Source of the DNA: Williamsia muralis NBRC 105860
Lineage (GTDB): Bacteria > Actinomycetota > Actinomycetes > Mycobacteriales > Mycobacteriaceae
Assembly (NCBI RefSeq): GCF_001598915.1
Contig: NZ_BDAP01000002.1
Span: forward strand, 372,001-436,000
DNA: 64,000 bases
Reading direction: 5' to 3'
Each line of letters opens with the position of its first letter. Position 1 is the stretch's first letter. Shown in pieces: positions 6,828 to 56,657 of this stretch. The notes under the pieces were generated by a model that saw only the letters and a list, made by a program, of their open reading frames with translations, was not told the origin of the DNA and made no database searches. The position numbers and the translations under genes were made by a program.

Positions 6828-7241
6828 CTAATTGATGTTGTACGTGACAGTGTTGTTCGCTGGGGCGGGGTCACCGGTGGTGGACAGCGCGAAGTACGTC
6901 AGGGGCGCCCCGGCGATGTAGCCGCAACCTCCGAAGTATTCGGTCAGCGATTGGCCGGCGGCCATGTTGCCGAGATACCGCGGCGGCCCACCTGCCAGCA
7001 GCGCGACCAGGCTGCTGGGCCCAGCGATGACGTTGTAGGCGGTGTCGGGGCCGCGGTTTGTGACCGTCAGGTGGCAGGTGTCGAAGCTCGAGGAGATTGT
7101 CACAGAAAGGTCAGCGCTGCCCCCACTCGCTGATCCGGATTCCGGTGCGGCAGCGGCGGGGCCGACACCGATTACCAATGCCGCAGCTCCGGCTGCAACG
7201 ACCCCGACGCCGATTGCCCGAACAGTTGTATTCATACGCAT
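6828..7241 (-). CDS. Secreted protein with DUF11/CARDB-like domain
   Basis: A 137-residue exported protein. A signal peptide is clear: a short basic start, a hydrophobic run of Ala/Val/Gly and a cleavage region at PAAAAPES. The mature part contains the pattern CHLTVTNRGPDTAYNV, like the Ig-fold surface repeat DUF11, and ends in PAPANNTVTYNIN. Two mature cysteines could form a disulfide. The start at 7241 is preceded by AAGGGGGC; upstream in-frame starts would bury the signal peptide. The function is unknown, probably at the cell surface. Confidence 0.7.
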   Translation of the reverse strand: MRMNTTVRAIGVGVVAAGAAALVIGVGPAAAAPESGSASGGSADLSVTISSSFDTCHLTVTNRGPDTAYNVIAGPSSLVALLAGGPPRYLGNMAAGQSLTEYFGGCGYIAGAPLTYFALSTTGDPAPANNTVTYNIN

Positions 7242-7481
7242 GGATCTGCCCCCTTGGCCTGTCACTACGCTTTGAACCCGGACTGTACGCCGCACTGCGA
7301 GTGCAACATCGGCAAACTGGAGAAAAGATGTCAAGCGGCAGCTCGTGGACTTGGCGTACCCACCCGGTGCCAACGCAACATTCGTTGATTCACGTAACAG
7401 ATTGCGGCACCATAACTTTCGTGTCGCTGACGAAATAATCCGTGAACACCGCGCTGCCCTGCCGGTCGTTCGATCGCTTCC

Positions 7482-7955
7482 TTACGCTGGGCGGGCAGGT
7501 TGAGTATGCGTCGGCGTCGGTGCTGGAGGGGCGAAAGTGCCTCCTGGACGGTGCGGTTGAACGAAGTGCTGCACAAAGGCAACTAACAAGCCGACGGCCG
7601 CCATCGGAACTGCAAAACCCAACAGAATCCAGAATGACGCCCAGTTTGCTATCGCTATGAATGCCAACACGCCGAATGTGAGGACAACCAGCCACGACAC
7701 CCAGCGCTTCATCGCCAGGGCCGCCACGGCGGGAGGCACTGCCAACATCAGCCCGAGCTGAACCAACGGCCACGAACCAAAGACGCGCAGGATCGAGTCA
7801 TCGCACTGCAGCGCGGCTTGGCTTCCGTCGAGACCCAACTCGCCGGACTTAGAACACGACAGTGACACACCCTCAACTGGCGACATCGCAGTCCAGATCG
7901 TGAATATCACTGCCGCCAGAGCCAAACTCCACCAAACCGCTCTCAGTGCCAGCAC
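7482..7955 (-). CDS. Small integral membrane protein
   Basis: A 157-residue protein with about four hydrophobic helices (near residues 5-24, 62-82, 85-104 and 107-130). An extracytoplasmic loop with two cysteines (SLSCSKSG and LQCDDS) lies between helices 1 and 2. The tail is rich in Pro, Thr and His. I do not recognise a family. It is followed on the same strand by the secreted DUF11-like gene after a gap of about 240 bases in which I see nothing coding. Confidence 0.55.
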   Translation of the reverse strand: MLALRAVWWSLALAAVIFTIWTAMSPVEGVSLSCSKSGELGLDGSQAALQCDDSILRVFGSWPLVQLGLMLAVPPAVAALAMKRWVSWLVVLTFGVLAFIAIANWASFWILLGFAVPMAAVGLLVAFVQHFVQPHRPGGTFAPPAPTPTHTQPARPA

Positions 7956-8046
7956 AAGCGGAGCCTAGCCGTCCTTCTCAGAGCAAGTATTGGTGCGGCC
8001 CCGACGCCGGCCCTCGTGCCGGCGTCGGCCAAGCAGCTCAAACACT

Positions 8047-8934
8047 TCATTGTCCGCCCGCGACACTCGGACCCTGGGCCGTAATGGATTGCGGCGTCAG
8101 CCGCTTTTGATCGGACCCGTCGGGGTTCATCGAGGCGAGCTCGGCGCGAGTCGGGACAGCTATGTCGGTGACGAGTTCACCAGAGTCCGTGGCCGCCCTG
8201 GTGTAAATGATGCGCGACCCGTCAGGTGTGAACGCCGGGCTTATGGCGTAGGTGGCAGTAAGCGCTGTGATGTCACCGCCTGTCACGGGCATCGAATAGA
8301 TCTCCGATCCGTTGTTCCCGCCCCGGTTGCTGGAGAAGACGAGGGTCGAGCCGTCGGGAGAATAGACGGGATCTGCGTTCCAGAACTGATCGCGCAAAAC
8401 GACTCTCGATGGTCCCGGTGCTGTCGGTGCCTCGACGAGATACCCGGAAACGACGAAGATGACGCGCGAGCCATCAGGAGAAAATGCGGGATCGGAGGCC
8501 GCCTCGTGCTGAGCGATGACACGCATATCGGAACCGTCGCTGTCCATGACGTAAATGGCGCCGTTGTTCGCGAAAGCAATGGTGGACTCATCCGGCGAGA
8601 AGGCAGGCTGGTAACCGCCGTCCCGGATTGTCTTGGACTCGCCCGACCCGAGGTCGACCAATTCGATGAGGGTACCGCCGCGGGTATACGCAAGCTGTTT
8701 GCCGGACGGCGACAGGGCGGCGAAGTTTGCGTATTGCATGTCAAACGTGTCATCACGCAGGGTCGGGGTGACTTGGCGTAGGCCACCACCGTCCGCATCG
8801 GCCACAAATACCTGACCCCGTCCGTCGTCGAAAGCAATAAGAACCGGCGTCGGCGCGGGCGGGGCGTCGTCCGCGCATGCTGTCGCGGCCACTAGAACGG
8901 CGATGGCGACGGACACTAACCGGATGAACCGCAT
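8047..8934 (-). CDS. TolB-like beta-propeller lipoprotein
   Basis: A 295-residue lipoprotein. The signal peptide ends in a lipobox-like VAATAC with the acylated Cys at about residue 20. The mature part has repeated WD40-like (PD40) blades marked by SPDGS, SPDES and TPDGS, each followed by hydrophobic strand pairs, as in TolB. It would sit on the outer face of the membrane and probably bind a protein or ligand. No Tol system is next to it, and Tol is not expected in this group, so the name describes only the fold. Confidence 0.8.
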   Translation of the reverse strand: MRFIRLVSVAIAVLVAATACADDAPPAPTPVLIAFDDGRGQVFVADADGGGLRQVTPTLRDDTFDMQYANFAALSPSGKQLAYTRGGTLIELVDLGSGESKTIRDGGYQPAFSPDESTIAFANNGAIYVMDSDGSDMRVIAQHEAASDPAFSPDGSRVIFVVSGYLVEAPTAPGPSRVVLRDQFWNADPVYSPDGSTLVFSSNRGGNNGSEIYSMPVTGGDITALTATYAISPAFTPDGSRIIYTRAATDSGELVTDIAVPTRAELASMNPDGSDQKRLTPQSITAQGPSVAGGQ

Positions 8935-9040
8935 TGGGTGATGATGACATGCTCAGACAAACCGTGATTCGAACTCGCGGTGCTGAGGACGGATGTGAGG
9001 CAGGCCTGGTCAGTGGAGGCATGCTGTTGGTTGAGCTGCT

Positions 9041-9709
9041 TCATCTTTGCGCGAGGCTGGCCTCCAGCATCTCGAGGAGCGATTGCAAAGTGTCAGGGTC
9101 GCCATCAATCTTGACGAGTCCGTTTTCGATGGCCTCGGTTACGGTCATCCGATTGCCGGCGATGGCAGCCATTGTCGGCGGCTCCGTCCAAATGACCGCG
9201 TCTGCGGGCGTTTGAGGCGGCCCCGCTTGGACGCGGGGAGACCCATCTTGAAGTTGTAGTGTCGCAACGCTATTGCCGACGTTGAACTCGAACCTCGAAG
9301 TCATTCCTCGAAGTGATTCCTTGTCGAGCATGCGCGCGAGGAACAGCAGTGACCACTCGGCGTGAAAACTCTCATCAGACTTCGGATCTTCGCTGGTGTG
9401 ATGTCGAGCCCCCCACAACGCCAACGGCACCATCGCGTCTGCGAGTTCTTGGCCGGGGTCGGTCAATTCATAGACGGTCGAAGCGGCAGGCGGGCTCAGG
9501 TACCGCCGCCGGACAATCCCGTCGACCTCGAGTTGTTTGAGTCGCGACGCCAACAAGCTGGTGCCGATGCCGGTCAGCACGTCCGAGAGGTCGGAGTACC
9601 GCTTCGGCCCCGACATCAGCTCGCGCACGATCAGCAACGTCCACCGCTCGCCGACCACATCGAGCGCACGGGAAAGCCCGCAGAACTGGTCGTAGCTACG
9701 TCGCACCAT
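9041..9709 (-). CDS. HxlR family regulator with C-terminal SCP2-like extension
   Basis: A protein of about 222 residues. The first 100 residues are a winged helix of the HxlR type: CGLSRALDVVGERWTLLIVREL, then YSDLSDVLTGIGTSLLASRLKQLE and the wing VYELTDPGQELADAM. The next 110 residues resemble the small sterol-carrier-like ligand domain often attached to such regulators. The start may be the ATG at 9709 or the GTG at 9718. It is divergent from a stress-protein-like gene across an AT-rich control region. Confidence 0.85.
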   Translation of the reverse strand: MVRRSYDQFCGLSRALDVVGERWTLLIVRELMSGPKRYSDLSDVLTGIGTSLLASRLKQLEVDGIVRRRYLSPPAASTVYELTDPGQELADAMVPLALWGARHHTSEDPKSDESFHAEWSLLFLARMLDKESLRGMTSRFEFNVGNSVATLQLQDGSPRVQAGPPQTPADAVIWTEPPTMAAIAGNRMTVTEAIENGLVKIDGDPDTLQSLLEMLEASLAQR

Positions 9710-51581: not shown

Positions 51582-53066
51582 TCACCCGGCGGCAGGCACA
51601 GTGGCCGTCACACTCGTTGTCGACCATCGGCCGTCACGTTTGGTCACCGTGTTCACGGTGCCGTCAGCCGCGGTCACCTTCAGCGTCACGTCGTCGGCCC
51701 ACTCGAGTTGCGCGGCTCGGAGATCACCACGGTATTCCTCTGTGCCGCTCTGCTTGTCACCGATGGTGACCGTTCCATCGTTCGCCGAGGCGACGTAGGT
51801 TCCTGCGGGTGAGGTTGTCTCGGGAACCGACGTGAGGGTGGTCGCGGACGTAGGTGCCGGACTTGCTGTGGGTTCCTCGCTGAGTGGGGTTGACGGTGGT
51901 GGTGTGCTGCTCGTGGTCGGGGCTGGGGACGCAGTCGAGGTCGACGTGGCGGGCGCCTGCGACAACGTGGTGGTGGTAGGCGCCTGCGTTGTTGTCGCGG
52001 AGGGTAATTGGGTGGTCGTGGTCTGGGCGGGTGCTGAACGTGCGGCGGCGGTCCCTGAGGGTGTTCCGTTCGTTTCCCCGCAGGTCGTGGTGAAGAACCC
52101 TTCCTGGATGCGAATCGTCAGCTTTCCGGTCGACAGGAAGTTGCCCACTTTGCTGCGCAGGTCAATGTTGTAGATGGCGGCCAAGGGAAACCACGGGGTG
52201 TTGTAAGTGATGGTCTGAGTAGCCGTGATGGCGGTCGAGGCGATCTTCACATGCGTCCTTGTTGCGCCACCGGCCACGTTGGTGAGAGAGAGTTCGTAGT
52301 CGTAGCTGTGGTTGCTGACCGGGTTAGGCCACGACAGTACGATATTCGGGTAGGTATTCGTGCAGGTCAACGAGGTGGGTACGATCGGACGGCCCGCTGA
52401 CACGGTGCCGGTCGCGGTGGCGGAGTCGTTGAGCGCTGCGAGGGTGTTGTTCGTCCGAACGTAACCGGTCACCGCGGTGGCGACCACGGTCAACACGATC
52501 ACCGCCTGTACCGCGAGCGTCGCGTTACGTGAGCGCGGGGACGACGATGCTGCATGCCGGCCTGGGTTCGATCGGTGAATCAGCCTGTCCGGCCGGAATG
52601 CCGCGGACAACAGCCCGAGGGTCAGTAGGGTGGCGACCGCCCACGAGTAGGGACTGGTAAACCAGCTCAACACGTAACCGAGATTCGGAACATGGAACAA
52701 GACGCGGTCGACTGTGACTGCGGTATACGGCTCAGGATCGTTGATGCTGTTCGCGTCGCCCCGCAGGGTCATGGTGGCCGAGTTGCCGACGCGTGAGTCG
52801 ATCGAGACCACCCTGTGTGTGATGCGGGTTCCGTCTGGGCGGGACACACTGACGATGTCGCCGGGGGCAAGCTCGGCTGCGGAGACCGAACGCGCGATGG
52901 CGACGTCGCCAGTGGCGATAGCCGGAGACATCGAGTCTGAGCGAAAAACCAACGGCGACAGACCGAATGCGACGCTCGCGAGCGCGACGATCACACACAG
53001 CAGGCCGGCCAGTGCCCCTACGGTGAGGGTGACCTCGATGGCGTATTTCTTCGTCCGGTCGCTCAT
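51582..53066 (-). CDS. SipW-type signal peptidase I fused to a Thr-rich outer region (SipW-C)
   Basis: A 494-residue fusion. Residues 1-165 are an S26B signal peptidase of the SipW/archaeal kind: one N-terminal helix, FRSDSMSPAIATGDVAIARS with Ser45, ITHRVVSID with His84 in place of the bacterial Lys, LRGDANSINDPEPY, and a second helix. After a third helix comes an exterior beta-rich domain (about 250-375), a stalk very rich in Thr, Pro, Ser and Ala (about 380-440) and a small beta end domain. It is the last gene of the seven-gene operon, one base after the preceding stop. Confidence 0.85.
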   Translation of the reverse strand: MSDRTKKYAIEVTLTVGALAGLLCVIVALASVAFGLSPLVFRSDSMSPAIATGDVAIARSVSAAELAPGDIVSVSRPDGTRITHRVVSIDSRVGNSATMTLRGDANSINDPEPYTAVTVDRVLFHVPNLGYVLSWFTSPYSWAVATLLTLGLLSAAFRPDRLIHRSNPGRHAASSSPRSRNATLAVQAVIVLTVVATAVTGYVRTNNTLAALNDSATATGTVSAGRPIVPTSLTCTNTYPNIVLSWPNPVSNHSYDYELSLTNVAGGATRTHVKIASTAITATQTITYNTPWFPLAAIYNIDLRSKVGNFLSTGKLTIRIQEGFFTTTCGETNGTPSGTAAARSAPAQTTTTQLPSATTTQAPTTTTLSQAPATSTSTASPAPTTSSTPPPSTPLSEEPTASPAPTSATTLTSVPETTSPAGTYVASANDGTVTIGDKQSGTEEYRGDLRAAQLEWADDVTLKVTAADGTVNTVTKRDGRWSTTSVTATVPAAG

Positions 53067-53067
53067 G

Positions 53068-53643
53068 TCAGATACCTGCGCCGGCGTTGAAGGTGAACAC
53101 AACGGAACCGGACGTGCCGGCCAGGCCGGCCAGTGCCGTGATCGGGAGGCTGAGTTGAAGGCACAGTGCGTCGGTCCCTCCGGAAGCTGCGACCGGTCCA
53201 CGCCCGGTGAAGAATGCCGTCGCCGTGCTGGTGATGGTCGCGCTGGTGGTGAGTGTGGTTCCGGTACCGCAGGTTCCGTTGGTCGCCGTCGCTCCGGCCA
53301 CCACCTTGAGCGTCATGCCCTGGCCGAGCGCGTTGGCACTGGACACCAGCGCGTTGTAGGTGAACGCCGCCGATCCGGTATTGCTCACGGTGATGACTTT
53401 CGCGGCCGACTGCCCCGGCAGGAGACCCACGGGAGCGAACGCGAAAGACGCGGTCTCTGTGCCGTTGTCGAGGATGTGGATATCGATGGTGGCAGTGGTG
53501 AACACACCTGATTGAGTGCTCACAGTGGACGACCAGAGGGCCATCGTGCCCACCACGCTGATGCCGATGACCATCCCGATCGATAAGATCGCGCGAAGTC
53601 GTCGACTGATCAGCGCTGAGGTCAGAGCTCGCAACCAGGACAT
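53068..53643 (-). CDS. SipW-dependent (TasA-like) secreted protein 4
   Basis: A 191-residue exported protein. A basic start and a hydrophobic helix lead to TMALWSSTVSTQ, the A-x-W-S motif typical of the alternate signal peptide cut by SipW enzymes. The mature part is beta-rich: FTTATIDIHILDNGTETASF and VITVSNTGSAAFTYNALVSS, as in camelysin/TasA-like fibre proteins, with three cysteines. GAGGAG lies before both a GTG (53646) and this ATG. It overlaps the signal peptidase B gene upstream. Confidence 0.82.
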   Translation of the reverse strand: MSWLRALTSALISRRLRAILSIGMVIGISVVGTMALWSSTVSTQSGVFTTATIDIHILDNGTETASFAFAPVGLLPGQSAAKVITVSNTGSAAFTYNALVSSANALGQGMTLKVVAGATATNGTCGTGTTLTTSATITSTATAFFTGRGPVAASGGTDALCLQLSLPITALAGLAGTSGSVVFTFNAGAGI

Positions 53644-54233
53644 CACGTTGGGCTCCTCGAAGCGCGCCGCTCGCGCACGGAACCCACGAATTGGGTTGCA
53701 GCGTAGAGAACCAGAACACTCGCAAGGACGTAGACGAGGATGAGGCGGGTCGAACCGCTGACCCAGTTGTTCACGTAGCCGAGATACGGGATCGCGTACC
53801 AGAGTTTTCCACGGACTTGCTCCGACACCACCGGGTTGGCATCGGGGACGGCCACGGCATCACCTTGCGTGGTGAGTAGCTGGTTGCCTTGCTGATCGAA
53901 GGTGAAGCCGACGACCCGGTGGGTGATCACATCGGATTTGTCCGACTCCATCTGATAGGTGACGACGTCCCCGATCGCCAGTTCCGTCGTGTCGACCTTC
54001 TGTACGACGATGAGCGTTCCTGGTGGGTACCCGGGCTTCATGGACGAGGTGAGGACTGTGTACGGCTGAGCGCCCGCAATTTTCGGTAGCACGATGGCCG
54101 CGAGCAGAATCGCCACCAGGATCATCAAGATAAGCCACGTGATGATCTGCAGGGTCCACCACAGCGGCCCGGTACGATGCCCACGGCCCGAGCTCGCAGG
54201 CAGTGCGGATGTGCTGGCATGTTCTGTGATCAT
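53643..54233 (-). CDS. SipW-type signal peptidase I (SipW-B)
   Basis: A 196-residue membrane protease. After a long N-terminal helix, YTVLTSSMKPGYPPGTLIVV carries the catalytic Ser64 and DVITHRVVGF carries His105 in place of the usual Lys, the mark of SipW-type enzymes. TTQGDAVAVPDANPV is the conserved acidic segment and a C-terminal helix follows. Its ATG overlaps the stop of the upstream secreted-protein gene (ATGA) and its own stop overlaps the start of the downstream one. It should mature the neighbouring TasA-like proteins. Confidence 0.9.
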   Translation of the reverse strand: MITEHASTSALPASSGRGHRTGPLWWTLQIITWLILMILVAILLAAIVLPKIAGAQPYTVLTSSMKPGYPPGTLIVVQKVDTTELAIGDVVTYQMESDKSDVITHRVVGFTFDQQGNQLLTTQGDAVAVPDANPVVSEQVRGKLWYAIPYLGYVNNWVSGSTRLILVYVLASVLVLYAATQFVGSVRERRASRSPT

Positions 54234-54817
54234 GATCGCGTCTGTTCGGTTCCGAAGGCGAACAGCACTGTGTAGGTGGCCGATACGGTGCCCGTACCGG
54301 GTGGATTCACCGATGTCAGAGCGCTCCTGATGCACCAGCTTTCGGTTGCACCCTTGGCCAGTGAACGCCACGGGCTGGTGGCGGCGGTGGTGGAGCTGGT
54401 GGCGCTGAACGCCGTGAAAGCCGTGACTCCCGGCAGCACGCCGGTACTGCACGTGGCCCCCGCCCCCATCACCGTTCCGGAGAGTGACACGGTGACGCCC
54501 GGGCCGGACGTGACCTGCGGCCCGGCACTGTTGAGTTTGTACCGCAGCGGTGTGCTGCCGGCGTTCGTGACCGCCAGCGGTGCCTGGTTCTGCTGACCCG
54601 GCAGGATCCCGGATCCGTTCAGTCCCGCGAACTGGTAGGTGGAGCCAGAACCGGTTCCCGCCACCAATTTCAGTTGCCCGGTGTTGACCGTGGTGGTTGC
54701 AGTGGTTCCCTGATCAGACCAGAGGGCATCGGTCGATCGCACTGCCGCCAGAGACAGTGCGACGATCGCTCCCAGTGTCGCTACGACCAGAAGCCGGGCG
54801 AGAACCGGCCGCATCAT
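54230..54817 (-). CDS. SipW-dependent (TasA-like) secreted protein 3
   Basis: A 195-residue exported protein. LARLLVVATLGAIVALSLAA leads to STDALWSDQGTT, the alternate signal-peptide motif. The mature part is Ser/Thr/Gly-rich and beta-type, with LAVTNAGSTPLRYKLNS, like the N-G-S/T turn segments of TasA/camelysin. Two cysteines (GATCSTG, ESWCIRS) may form a disulfide. It follows the previous secreted-protein gene by two bases and overlaps the SipW-B gene by four. Confidence 0.82.
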   Translation of the reverse strand: MMRPVLARLLVVATLGAIVALSLAAVRSTDALWSDQGTTATTTVNTGQLKLVAGTGSGSTYQFAGLNGSGILPGQQNQAPLAVTNAGSTPLRYKLNSAGPQVTSGPGVTVSLSGTVMGAGATCSTGVLPGVTAFTAFSATSSTTAATSPWRSLAKGATESWCIRSALTSVNPPGTGTVSATYTVLFAFGTEQTRS

Positions 54818-54819
54818 GA

Positions 54820-55353
54820 TCAGGGACGAACTTGGTTCAGGCTGACGGACATACCGGACACGTTCACCGGCGAGACCTGGCTGGTGGTGCCTGTGACATC
54901 AGCAAACGCAACAGTGACTTTGACGATGACGGTGTGTGGGGTGCCGGGCGCGATCGTGATGGCACCACCGGTCGCCGTAGTACCGTCCACCGAAGCTGCC
55001 GGGGTGATCGTCACGCCGGTCGGCGGGGTTCCCGCGGTACCGGGATTGACGGTGACCTGAGCCTTCATGTTCTTTCCTGTGGCTGTTGCCGTGTAACTGG
55101 AGGTGTATTCCCACGTGTCGCGCGGAACCAGGAGATCGATCAGGGGGTTGATGGCAGTTCCGCCCACGATTCCGTCAGTCGAGACGTCCTTCCACGCGGA
55201 CGTTCCGGTTGCCGTCAATTTGAGCTCCCCAGAGGTCAGGTTTCCCGGGGTGCTCGATGCCGAGTCACTCCAGAGTGCGTAGGAACCTGCACCGCCGAGC
55301 AGAACGACGACAGCGGCACCGGCGGCGAGGGCGCCCTTGGCATTGCGGTTCAC
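54820..55353 (-). CDS. SipW-dependent (TasA-like) secreted protein 2
   Basis: A 177-residue exported protein that starts GTG, KGALAAGAAVVVLLGGAGSY, then ALWSDSASS. This is the alternate-type signal peptide (TIGR04089-like). The mature part starts TPGNLTSGELKLTATG, like TasA-family mature N-termini, and continues as beta strands rich in Thr and Val without cysteine. The start overlaps the stop of SipW-A as GTGA, so the pair is coupled. Confidence 0.87.
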   Translation of the reverse strand: MNRNAKGALAAGAAVVVLLGGAGSYALWSDSASSTPGNLTSGELKLTATGTSAWKDVSTDGIVGGTAINPLIDLLVPRDTWEYTSSYTATATGKNMKAQVTVNPGTAGTPPTGVTITPAASVDGTTATGGAITIAPGTPHTVIVKVTVAFADVTGTTSQVSPVNVSGMSVSLNQVRP

Positions 55354-56051
55354 TTTTCGGCCTCTTCTACTTGCAGACGCTCGTCAGAGCTACTGATCGG
55401 GTTGGGGGTGAGATCACCCTGGTGGACAGACGAATGCTGTCCGGTTCGCGCGGAGTCAGAAGGCAAGGTGTCGGGTCCGTCGTTGTCCAACTTCTTATGT
55501 CGTGCCCGGCGTCCGTCTCGTAGAGCTCCGGCGGTCATGAACATTGCGTAGGAGAACAATCCGATCACCAGCACACCGATGGTCCACGCTCTTTGTTGAC
55601 CGGTGAGCCAGTTGTTGACGTAGCCGAGATAGGGGACGCTATACCAGACCTCGCCACGAACTTGCTCGGCGACAACTGGTTTCGCGTCTGGACTGTCGTT
55701 GGCGTCGCCGCGCGTCACAAATGCGCGCTCGCCTTTCGCGTTCTGTGTCGTCGACACAATCCGGTGCGTGACCACCGCCGACTGCCCGGTCTGCAACTGG
55801 TAGGTGATCGGCAACCCGATGCGTAGTTCTTTTGCCTCAACGGGTTTGACCACGATCAAGGTCCCGGGTGGATACGTCGGTTTCATGGAACCGGTCAACA
55901 CGGTGAAGCGCTCCGCGCCGGCGATCGCGGGAACGAGGATGACGAGGACCAACAGCGCGAGCATTCCGAGCAGCAGTGACCAACTCACTGTTGTTCGGAT
56001 CCACCACCACAGTCCGGTGGGCTCGTGCGTTGAGTTGTCGTCGGCGGTCAT
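55350..56051 (-). CDS. SipW-type signal peptidase I (SipW-A)
   Basis: A 233-residue membrane protease. The N-terminal helix (about residues 21-44) is followed by FTVLTGSMKPTYPPGTLIVV with Ser55, VVTHRIVSTT with His96 in place of Lys, FVTRGDANDSPDAKPV, and a second helix (about 155-175). The last 55 residues are a polar tail rich in Asp, Ser and Glu, not found in SipW-B. It lies 39 bases after the first secreted-protein gene and is coupled to the second. Confidence 0.9.
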   Translation of the reverse strand: MTADDNSTHEPTGLWWWIRTTVSWSLLLGMLALLVLVILVPAIAGAERFTVLTGSMKPTYPPGTLIVVKPVEAKELRIGLPITYQLQTGQSAVVTHRIVSTTQNAKGERAFVTRGDANDSPDAKPVVAEQVRGEVWYSVPYLGYVNNWLTGQQRAWTIGVLVIGLFSYAMFMTAGALRDGRRARHKKLDNDGPDTLPSDSARTGQHSSVHQGDLTPNPISSSDERLQVEEAEK

Positions 56052-56090
56052 GGCTGTTGGTCTGCCGCGGGAGCGAATAGGCTTGGCTGC

Positions 56091-56657
56091 CTACGGCGCC
56101 GGGTTGGTGTTCTGTGTCAAGACGAGCTGGGTGGCGGCAAGATTGACGGTCTGGGTCTGAGCCGTCGTCCCGTCAGTCAGGGGGTCGAATGTCATTGTCA
56201 CCGAGACCACGATCGGCTGGTCGGCGTCCAGAGCTGCCGGAGTGATCTGAACTCCGGAATCATCACTCGGCAGTTCGACGCCGTTCGCTGTCACGCTCAC
56301 GACAGGCGGATTCAAAGCGTCTTCCAGTTCTTGGTCGCCTGTCACCCCGCCGACGTCGGCGGTCAGGGTTGCCGTCAGGTTGTCGCCGGTGGCGTTGACA
56401 GCCGTCTCGCAGGTGTAGGACACCACATCACCCGGGACGATCCGGAACGCGTCGATGTCGGTGATCGTGGTGCCACCATGATTAACGTCGGTCCAAGTTC
56501 CGTCGCCGGTGCAGTCATCAAGCGAAAGCGTGCCAGAGCTGATGGCTGCGTCGGGGGTACTACTGGAGTCATTCCAGTAGGCCAGACTGCCGGCCCCGCC
56601 GAGTAGAAGTATGGCTCCCGCGCCGGCGGCAGCTGCAGCTTTGGTTTGCTTTTTCAT
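56091..56657 (-). CDS. SipW-dependent (TasA-like) secreted protein 1, first gene of operon
   Basis: A 188-residue exported protein. KKQTKAAAAAGAGAILLLGG, then AGSLAYWNDSSSTPDAA, is the alternate-type signal peptide with its W-N-D motif. The mature part starts AISSGTLSLDDC and is an acidic beta-type domain with two cysteines. It is the promoter-proximal gene of the seven-gene operon, so probably the most abundant product and the best candidate for the main fibre or matrix subunit. AAGAG precedes the ATG. Confidence 0.87.
   Translation of the reverse strand: MKKQTKAAAAAGAGAILLLGGAGSLAYWNDSSSTPDAAISSGTLSLDDCTGDGTWTDVNHGGTTITDIDAFRIVPGDVVSYTCETAVNATGDNLTATLTADVGGVTGDQELEDALNPPVVSVTANGVELPSDDSGVQITPAALDADQPIVVSVTMTFDPLTDGTTAQTQTVNLAATQLVLTQNTNPAP

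Follow-up and report, generated by a model that had tools for sequence, protein, structure and literature searches.

The window analysed here is a stretch of 64,000 nucleotides from Williamsia muralis NBRC 105860 (contig NZ_BDAP01000002.1, positions 372,001 to 436,000), a member of an actinobacterial family that includes mycolic-acid genera. Positions 51582-56657 of the window are filled by seven collinear minus-strand genes, at the coordinates given by a first-pass annotation, which encode signal peptidases of the SipW type and their putative secreted substrates. In order of transcription these are P0007 (56091..56657, 188 aa), an A-type (TIGR04089) SipW-cognate secreted protein whose signal ends ...GGAGSLA/YWND; P0006 (55350..56051, 233 aa), a free SipW-type peptidase by TIGR02228 and phylogeny; P0005 (54820..55353, 177 aa), an A-type substrate that by TIGR04089 and synteny opens a complete five-gene module; P0004 (54230..54817, 195 aa), a B-type substrate by its family profile, with a TIGR04089 match below cut-off; P0003 (53643..54233, 196 aa), the free SipW-type peptidase of the module by TIGR02228 and phylogeny; P0002 (53068..53646, 192 aa), a C-type substrate that is TasA/BsaA-like by profile; and P0001 (51582..53066, 494 aa), a SipW-type peptidase apparently fused to a SipW-type secreted protein. 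The genes are separated in the same order by a gap of 39, an overlap of 4, a gap of 2, two overlaps of 4 and a gap of 1 nucleotides. Coupling through short overlaps and gaps of 1-39 bases, as first described, is thus upheld, with the exception of a supposed TGATG overlap, where the junction reads TGA-TC-ATG. The seven genes had been divided into three peptidases and four substrates; the genes stand, but P0001 is not a peptidase alone and its fusion had been missed. Scans for promoters, terminators and Rfam families returned nothing above chance.

All three peptidases exceed the curated cut-off of TIGR02228 (51.85 bits), scoring 64.4 (P0001), 95.4 (P0003) and 93.4 bits (P0006), and S-M and T-H-R motifs can be read in each, with His at the position of Lys in P-type enzymes. 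By profile and by this predicted Ser/His pair they are SipW-type (endoplasmic reticulum-type, S26B) signal peptidases, in agreement with the original call of three S26B enzymes without a catalytic Lys. An ordinary LepB is encoded elsewhere in the genome (C3:103698; TIGR02227, 122.5 bits) and the peptidases of the operon are therefore extra.

The four free secreted proteins had all been assigned alternate signals, and profile searches for such signals and for SipW gave matches to TIGR02228, TIGR04088 and TIGR04089. Curated cut-offs are passed by P0007 (TIGR04089, 162 bits, E 1.5e-47; TIGR04088, 30.7 bits, E 2.3e-7) and P0005 (TIGR04089, 113 bits, E 1.6e-32; TIGR04088, 26 bits), the cut-offs being 60 and 19 bits respectively, while P0004 and P0002 are matched below them. 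Thus P0004 reaches only E 6e-4 with TIGR04089 and is absent from the TIGR04088 matches of a six-frame search; it scores E 1e-91 with the B profile, among whose rows it is itself included, and E 2e-15 with the C profile. P0002 matches TIGR04090 (BsaA) at E 4.8e-5 and 23 bits, under the 60-bit cut-off, and in the six-frame search the stretch holding its signal is over the TIGR04088 cut-off (22.6 bits). As whole proteins, P0002, P0004 and P0001 all fall below the TIGR04088 and TIGR04089 cut-offs. P0002 also weakly matches NF053671, 'bindosome assembly system protein BasC' (NCBIfam, E 0.0026), and a P0007-like alternate-type signal peptide domain protein is annotated on two Clavibacter michiganensis plasmids, NZ_CP021037.1 and NZ_CP011046.1, both predicted to be mobilizable.

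Architecture of P0001 and its internal motif

P0001 begins with the peptidase domain (residues 21-158; 52593..53006, from the TIGR02228 stretch and alignment), in which S45, H84 and D104 are invariant in 9/9 aligned rows. A basic linker leads into a third membrane segment, placed by hydropathy at residues about 182-200 (52467..52523), and beyond it stands an internal SipW-type motif, TLA/ALNDSATATGTVSAGRP, at residues 208-227 (52386..52445), identified by TIGR04088, a site matrix and conservation, with predicted P1 = A210 and P2' = L212. There follow an Fn3-like domain (52071..52379) with two invariant cysteines, C235 and C329, a Ser/Thr/Pro-rich linker (51813..52034) recognised from its sequence, and a conserved C-terminal tail domain of 76 residues (51582..51812), which in a 7-row alignment is weakly WD40-blade-like. 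The Fn3 likeness comes from a profile of the outer domain, whose PDB matches are mostly Fn3-type chains (best E 0.0081), and from cysteine conservation, both positions being kept in 25/25 fused proteins; Pfam fn3 itself matches 1/9 members at E 0.071. For the tail, the PDB search returned WD40 chains, mostly via a single 17-residue stretch counted repeatedly.

Descent of the C-terminal half of P0001 from a secreted protein of the SipW type is supported by several lines of evidence: TIGR04088, the site matrix, a conserved P1 Ala, copies of the outer domain that lack a peptidase, and unfused neighbours at other loci. In the six-frame search the internal site scores 19.5 bits against the TIGR04088 cut-off of 19, and for the isolated segment TIGR04088 is the only NCBIfam match up to E 10 (E 0.0051); 5/9 isolated fused segments are matched at E up to 10. 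The site matrix was built solely from 27 stand-alone substrates. Applied to the C-terminal extensions of 13 fused proteins, it ranks the site after the third segment above every other site of the extension in nine. By shuffling, P<0.01 in 5/13 and P<0.05 in 8/13, values that are not independent because the proteins are related; the P0001 site has P=0.0038 and is the best of the 313 in its extension. Among 12 further fused proteins, including one (L179) whose third segment was misplaced in the run, four reach P<0.05 and four have the site ranked top. Predicted P1 is Ala in 24 of all 25 fused proteins, P0001 included, with an aligned gap in the remaining one, and this column is among only 8/414 that are kept in at least 24 of the 25.

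Three open reading frames (ORFs) carry the outer domain without a peptidase, one in locus L180 and two identical ones in L183, and begin with N-terminal SipW-type signals, GTVAAFTDVASA and GTAAAFTDTASA. The gene in L180 starts cleanly and independently; the frames of L183 may be fused genes that have lost the peptidase half, since residues resembling the fused-gene linker lie upstream. Furthermore, in three of four loci of another type, designated L008, a separate protein with a TLAAWGD signal (open frame 598-607 aa) directly follows the peptidase gene; no such following protein was found at the fourth. On this reading the operon has five SipW cognates, one of them in cis.

Other results weigh against such a derivation. 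The equivalent site of the own-genome paralogue P0008 reaches 16.4 bits with TIGR04088, below the cut-off, and when run on whole fused proteins this model matches only 1/9. By the matrix the internal motif is not significant in 5/13 fused proteins, nor in 8/12 of the further set. Alignment of the fused segment with the B/C families by hhalign gives a probability of only 8.5%. Finally, the pattern A-x-[FWY]-[STN] occurs within the family at chance level (1/8 against 0.5 expected), a weakness that follows from P2' being mostly Leu.

This last residue bears on possible cleavage at the internal site. Of the 27 stand-alone substrates 26 carry Trp at P2' and the other Phe, whereas the 25 fused proteins have Leu in 17, Tyr in five, Phe in two and Trp in one, and P1' is Pro in 6/25; hence the site may be uncut. 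The excerpts of PMC10269814 consulted state that LepB handles aromatic P2' poorly, that other residues from P3 to P4' matter too, and that the absence of Pro at P1' is among the features of efficient secretion. P0001 could nevertheless cut itself, in cis or between copies, freeing the Fn3-like domain, linker and tail as a fifth secreted subunit, with its membrane part continuing as an ordinary peptidase. This is a live option that we place somewhat under an even chance: P1 Ala is almost universal, P2' is still aromatic (Y, F or W) in 8/25, the peptidase-free L180 homologue has its own N-terminal SipW-type signal and the L008-type loci offer the unfused arrangement, but the Pro and Leu residues show a motif retained and yet drifted from that of the free substrates. 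Alternatively the segment is never cut, and serves as a permanent outer domain of the peptidase which holds or presents substrates, the motif being a relic of gene fusion or a donor-strand-like segment. The six Pro residues at P1', given the rule on efficient secretion, and the loss of the aromatic residue in 17/25 would suit this, and the conserved P1 Ala and T-D-S-A-T run and the eight aromatic P2' residues would not; we regard it as quite possible without being probable. The drift of the motif points to a domain that is released in certain lineages and stays tethered in others.

A conserved five-gene module and its distribution

Profiles of substrate families A, B and C, of the peptidase, of the fused outer domain and of the tail were run over loci from the own genome, Williamsia and three other genera of the family. 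The order A, B, peptidase, C, fused peptidase is the same in 12/13 module loci and is permuted in one (L056). The twelve are the operon of the window, a second locus of the own genome (C4:544.6-548.4 kb), L055, L057 and, from other Williamsia, three modules of type I and five of type II; at least one module is present in 7/9 Williamsia genomes. In the peptidase tree, 14 free peptidases are separated from the rest by a branch with 100/100 support, and the 13 fused peptidases cluster together, moderately supported (87/84), in a group which adjoins the free peptidases of the third locus type, L008. The own-genome L008 (C4:53.5-57 kb) consists of a C-type substrate, a peptidase and, encoded separately, a LAAWGD protein of 606 aa that bears a Ser/Thr/Pro linker; it resembles an unfused counterpart of P0001, and its outer domain did not match the profile of the fused segment.

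By tree path, the closest peptidases to P0006 are those of type II modules. P0007 falls among the A proteins of that type (98/97), a placing that was unaffected by the shortening of P0005 to 82 residues in the A tree. We therefore read the operon as a complete type I module preceded by the head pair of a type II module that lacks its B, C and fused partners. The first-pass annotation had proposed that each substrate group has one peptidase. This is not borne out by the conserved unit, which comprises two kinds of peptidase, free and fused, with three free substrates; the third peptidase is an extra copy nearest to another type of module. P0007 and P0006 might be a working addition rather than a remnant, providing a second, separately processed main subunit. 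Their genes are intact and closely spaced, yet all five type II modules identified in Williamsia contain the B, C and fused partners that are missing here, and we judge this explanation plausible but a little short of probable.

A tandem array in another genus (L183, G384:C1:2195000-2213500), outside the 13 loci, is permuted, with some copies lacking the free peptidase. A 3.2-kb unit is repeated there at 99.8-99.9% identity, with more copies at 78-94%, and two copies carry the outer domain without the peptidase half; the array could be a recent amplification or an effect of assembly.

The system is not peculiar to this genome, as TIGR04089 matches 101/301 genomes of the family, in 17/31 genera sampled. 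The fused outer segment matches 76/301, in 15/31 genera sampled, and in the order TIGR02228 matches 194/298 genomes at E <=0.001, of which 103 are over cut-off. Peptidase and outer domain share one ORF in 12 of 13 further loci examined (L180 excepted), a B/C-type ORF lies nearby in 13/13, and the 25 compared fused ORFs span seven genera of the family. A scan of named genomes gave three close homologues of P0001, from W. limnetica, W. soli and W. sp. 1138, and one weak match in Microbacterium.

A wider class of peptidase-substrate fusions outside the family was considered and is not claimed, because A-x-[FWY]-[STN] behind the third segment is near chance there (6/35 against 3.9 expected by shuffling). 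Of 43 extended peptidases from all families, five reached P<0.01 in the matrix test, four of them from the family of P0001 and the fifth being L103. Of at least 72 long peptidase frames (400 aa or more) 60 were examined; L054, L058, L064, L071, L081 and L085 appear similar by eye and many others are dissimilar. In L054 (Microbacterium hydrothermale, about 7214-9065) a SipW-type substrate (YAAFSD) stands directly before a peptidase that is extended at its C-terminus (WATLADASAA) and has a domain that can be aligned with the one in P0001. In the long peptidase ORFs L064, L071, L081 and L103, from other families, the C-terminal extension behind A-x-F or similar motifs seems LamG-like by eye.

TasA likeness and a proposed fibre module

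The free substrates had been described as TasA-like, a description that finds weak support in the C family alone. A profile of 27 C-type sequences ranks TasA first and second among 177,635 PDB sequences (E 0.01 and 0.013), followed by an unrelated chain (E 0.076) and, fourth and fifth, by AbpX (E 0.11 and 0.12). TasA scores 18.9 bits against this profile, a value reached by 0/999 shuffles (best 7.0); many rows of the set include part of the signal region, and the match itself lies in the mature part. At E <=0.01, TIGR04088 matches 17/27 C-type members, TIGR04090 9/27, TIGR04089 7/27 and the TasA model 2/27, while the camelysin family PF12389 matches 7/27; the best relatives reach E 1.8e-6 with PF12389 and 2.8e-5 with the TasA model. 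A search for TasA and camelysin had been suggested at the outset, and it succeeds for these C-type relatives but not in the window, whose proteins are below cut-off for the PF12389, TasA and BsaA profiles. For A and B, TasA scores 9.0 and 4.6 bits, against best shuffles of 8.4 and 3.9.

The ranking of TasA by the C family lends weak support to TasA-like fibres, against which several points must be set. The C-family matches lie on the borderline (E 0.01) and depend for the most part on a single stretch of 50 residues; a profile of 15 B and C proteins places TasA on top, but at E 0.37; a nine-protein A profile did not find TasA in the PDB; and homology of the A family to TasA was not borne out by profile alignment (hhalign probability 0.6%). 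A plasmid search with a TasA fragment gave no match. There are, however, residues of note in both families. All 16 A-type proteins keep the aromatic P2', V-P-x-D, a Phe and a C-terminal L-x-Q, and all 27 C-type proteins keep P-G, together with one invariant cysteine and a second in 25/27. TasA residues F29, P62, F200 and Q232 form a conserved inter-protomer 'proline box' according to excerpts of PMC10151520, and the conserved A-type residues appear to be of these kinds, paired by pattern and without a confident alignment.

Both Bacillus and archaea are known to have donor-strand fibres of the TasA type. We propose, with slightly better than even confidence, that the operon is a SipW/TasA-type secretion and fibre module in which the fused peptidase acts as fibre initiator or anchor. 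The A-, B- and C-type proteins would be exported through Sec, carrying (G)-T-x-A/x-W-S-D signals that should suit Ser/His peptidases more than an ordinary LepB, and would be processed by P0003 and P0001, the latter perhaps cutting C first, as C is its fixed neighbour. Once cut, the three would most likely assemble outside the cell by TasA-like donor-strand exchange. The outer domain of P0001 seems to start with a segment of the kind found at the N-terminus of the free subunits, and may present a tethered or self-released first subunit on its long linker through the wall, while the additional P0007-P0006 pair would contribute a second A-type subunit with its own peptidase. From gene content, order and fusion, the motif and the conserved residues, we infer cutting, fibre formation and the initiator role.

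A, B and C could instead be monomeric proteins of the wall. That they are separate wall or adhesion proteins sharing a secretion route, with no joint fibre, would account for clear similarity to TasA being confined to C, given the narrow scores of A and B over their shuffles. Against this stand the fixed order in 12/13 modules, the fact that the B and C profiles each match members of the other family, and the resemblance of nine C-type members to BsaA, which in the excerpts of PMC7395162 available forms extracellular filamentous polymers, needs SipW for export, and polymerises by itself when made tagged and signal-less in E. coli. We consider this alternative unlikely.

Returning to the fibre module, P0001 may combine in a single chain two roles that in Bacillus are divided between SipW and TapA, the fibre initiator. 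In the consulted parts of PMC10151520, B. subtilis TapA is a complete Ig domain donating an N-terminal strand, and is unlikely to be in the filament beyond its start. A signal peptidase carrying its own fibre-initiating subunit is a tentative idea, and rather doubtful; the resemblance to TapA that we claim for the fused outer domain is one of function only. TapA was absent from the 7 PDB matches of the fused segment, the presence of a TapA chain in the PDB copy being unchecked. If the idea is right, the enzyme would cut incoming subunits and pass them on to the outer domain of the same chain, coupling processing to filament growth at a single point of the membrane; the initiator would be a permanent tethered anchor in proteins with Pro at P1' and would be released in those with an aromatic P2'.

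Comparison with known systems

SipW-type peptidases and TIGR04089 substrates are already known. Among the papers listed by searches of open PubMed Central, which leave preprints and most subscription papers outside, no title or beginning of an abstract deals with a signal peptidase-substrate fusion or with SipW modules in mycolic-acid actinobacteria, and no five-gene module with such a fusion was met. The module is a conserved candidate for fibre formation in this actinobacterial family, where any fibre would need to pass through an unusual wall, and the joining of peptidase and surface domain could explain how processing and fibre initiation are coupled.

P0007 and P0005 are members of TIGR04089 (exp_by_SipW_III) over its cut-off; this model covers the substrate only, and the five-gene module and fused peptidase lie outside its description. 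The archaeal bundling protein AbpX (PDB 9rhp, 9sj2), fourth and fifth among the C-family matches, is not significant alone. With the sipW-bsaABC operon of Clostridium perfringens the module shares the TIGR04090 matches of P0002 and of 9/27 C-type members at E <=0.01, but P0002 is far under the curated cut-off (23 against 60 bits), and the available excerpts of PMC7395162 mention no fusion there. In the tapA-sipW-tasA operon of Bacillus subtilis, as here, a Ser/His SipW-type peptidase stands beside alternate-signal substrates, and TasA tops the PDB matches of the C family. The present module differs in having two kinds of peptidase, one of them fused to an Fn3-like outer domain, and three substrate families, A, B and C, with cysteines in the C-type proteins.

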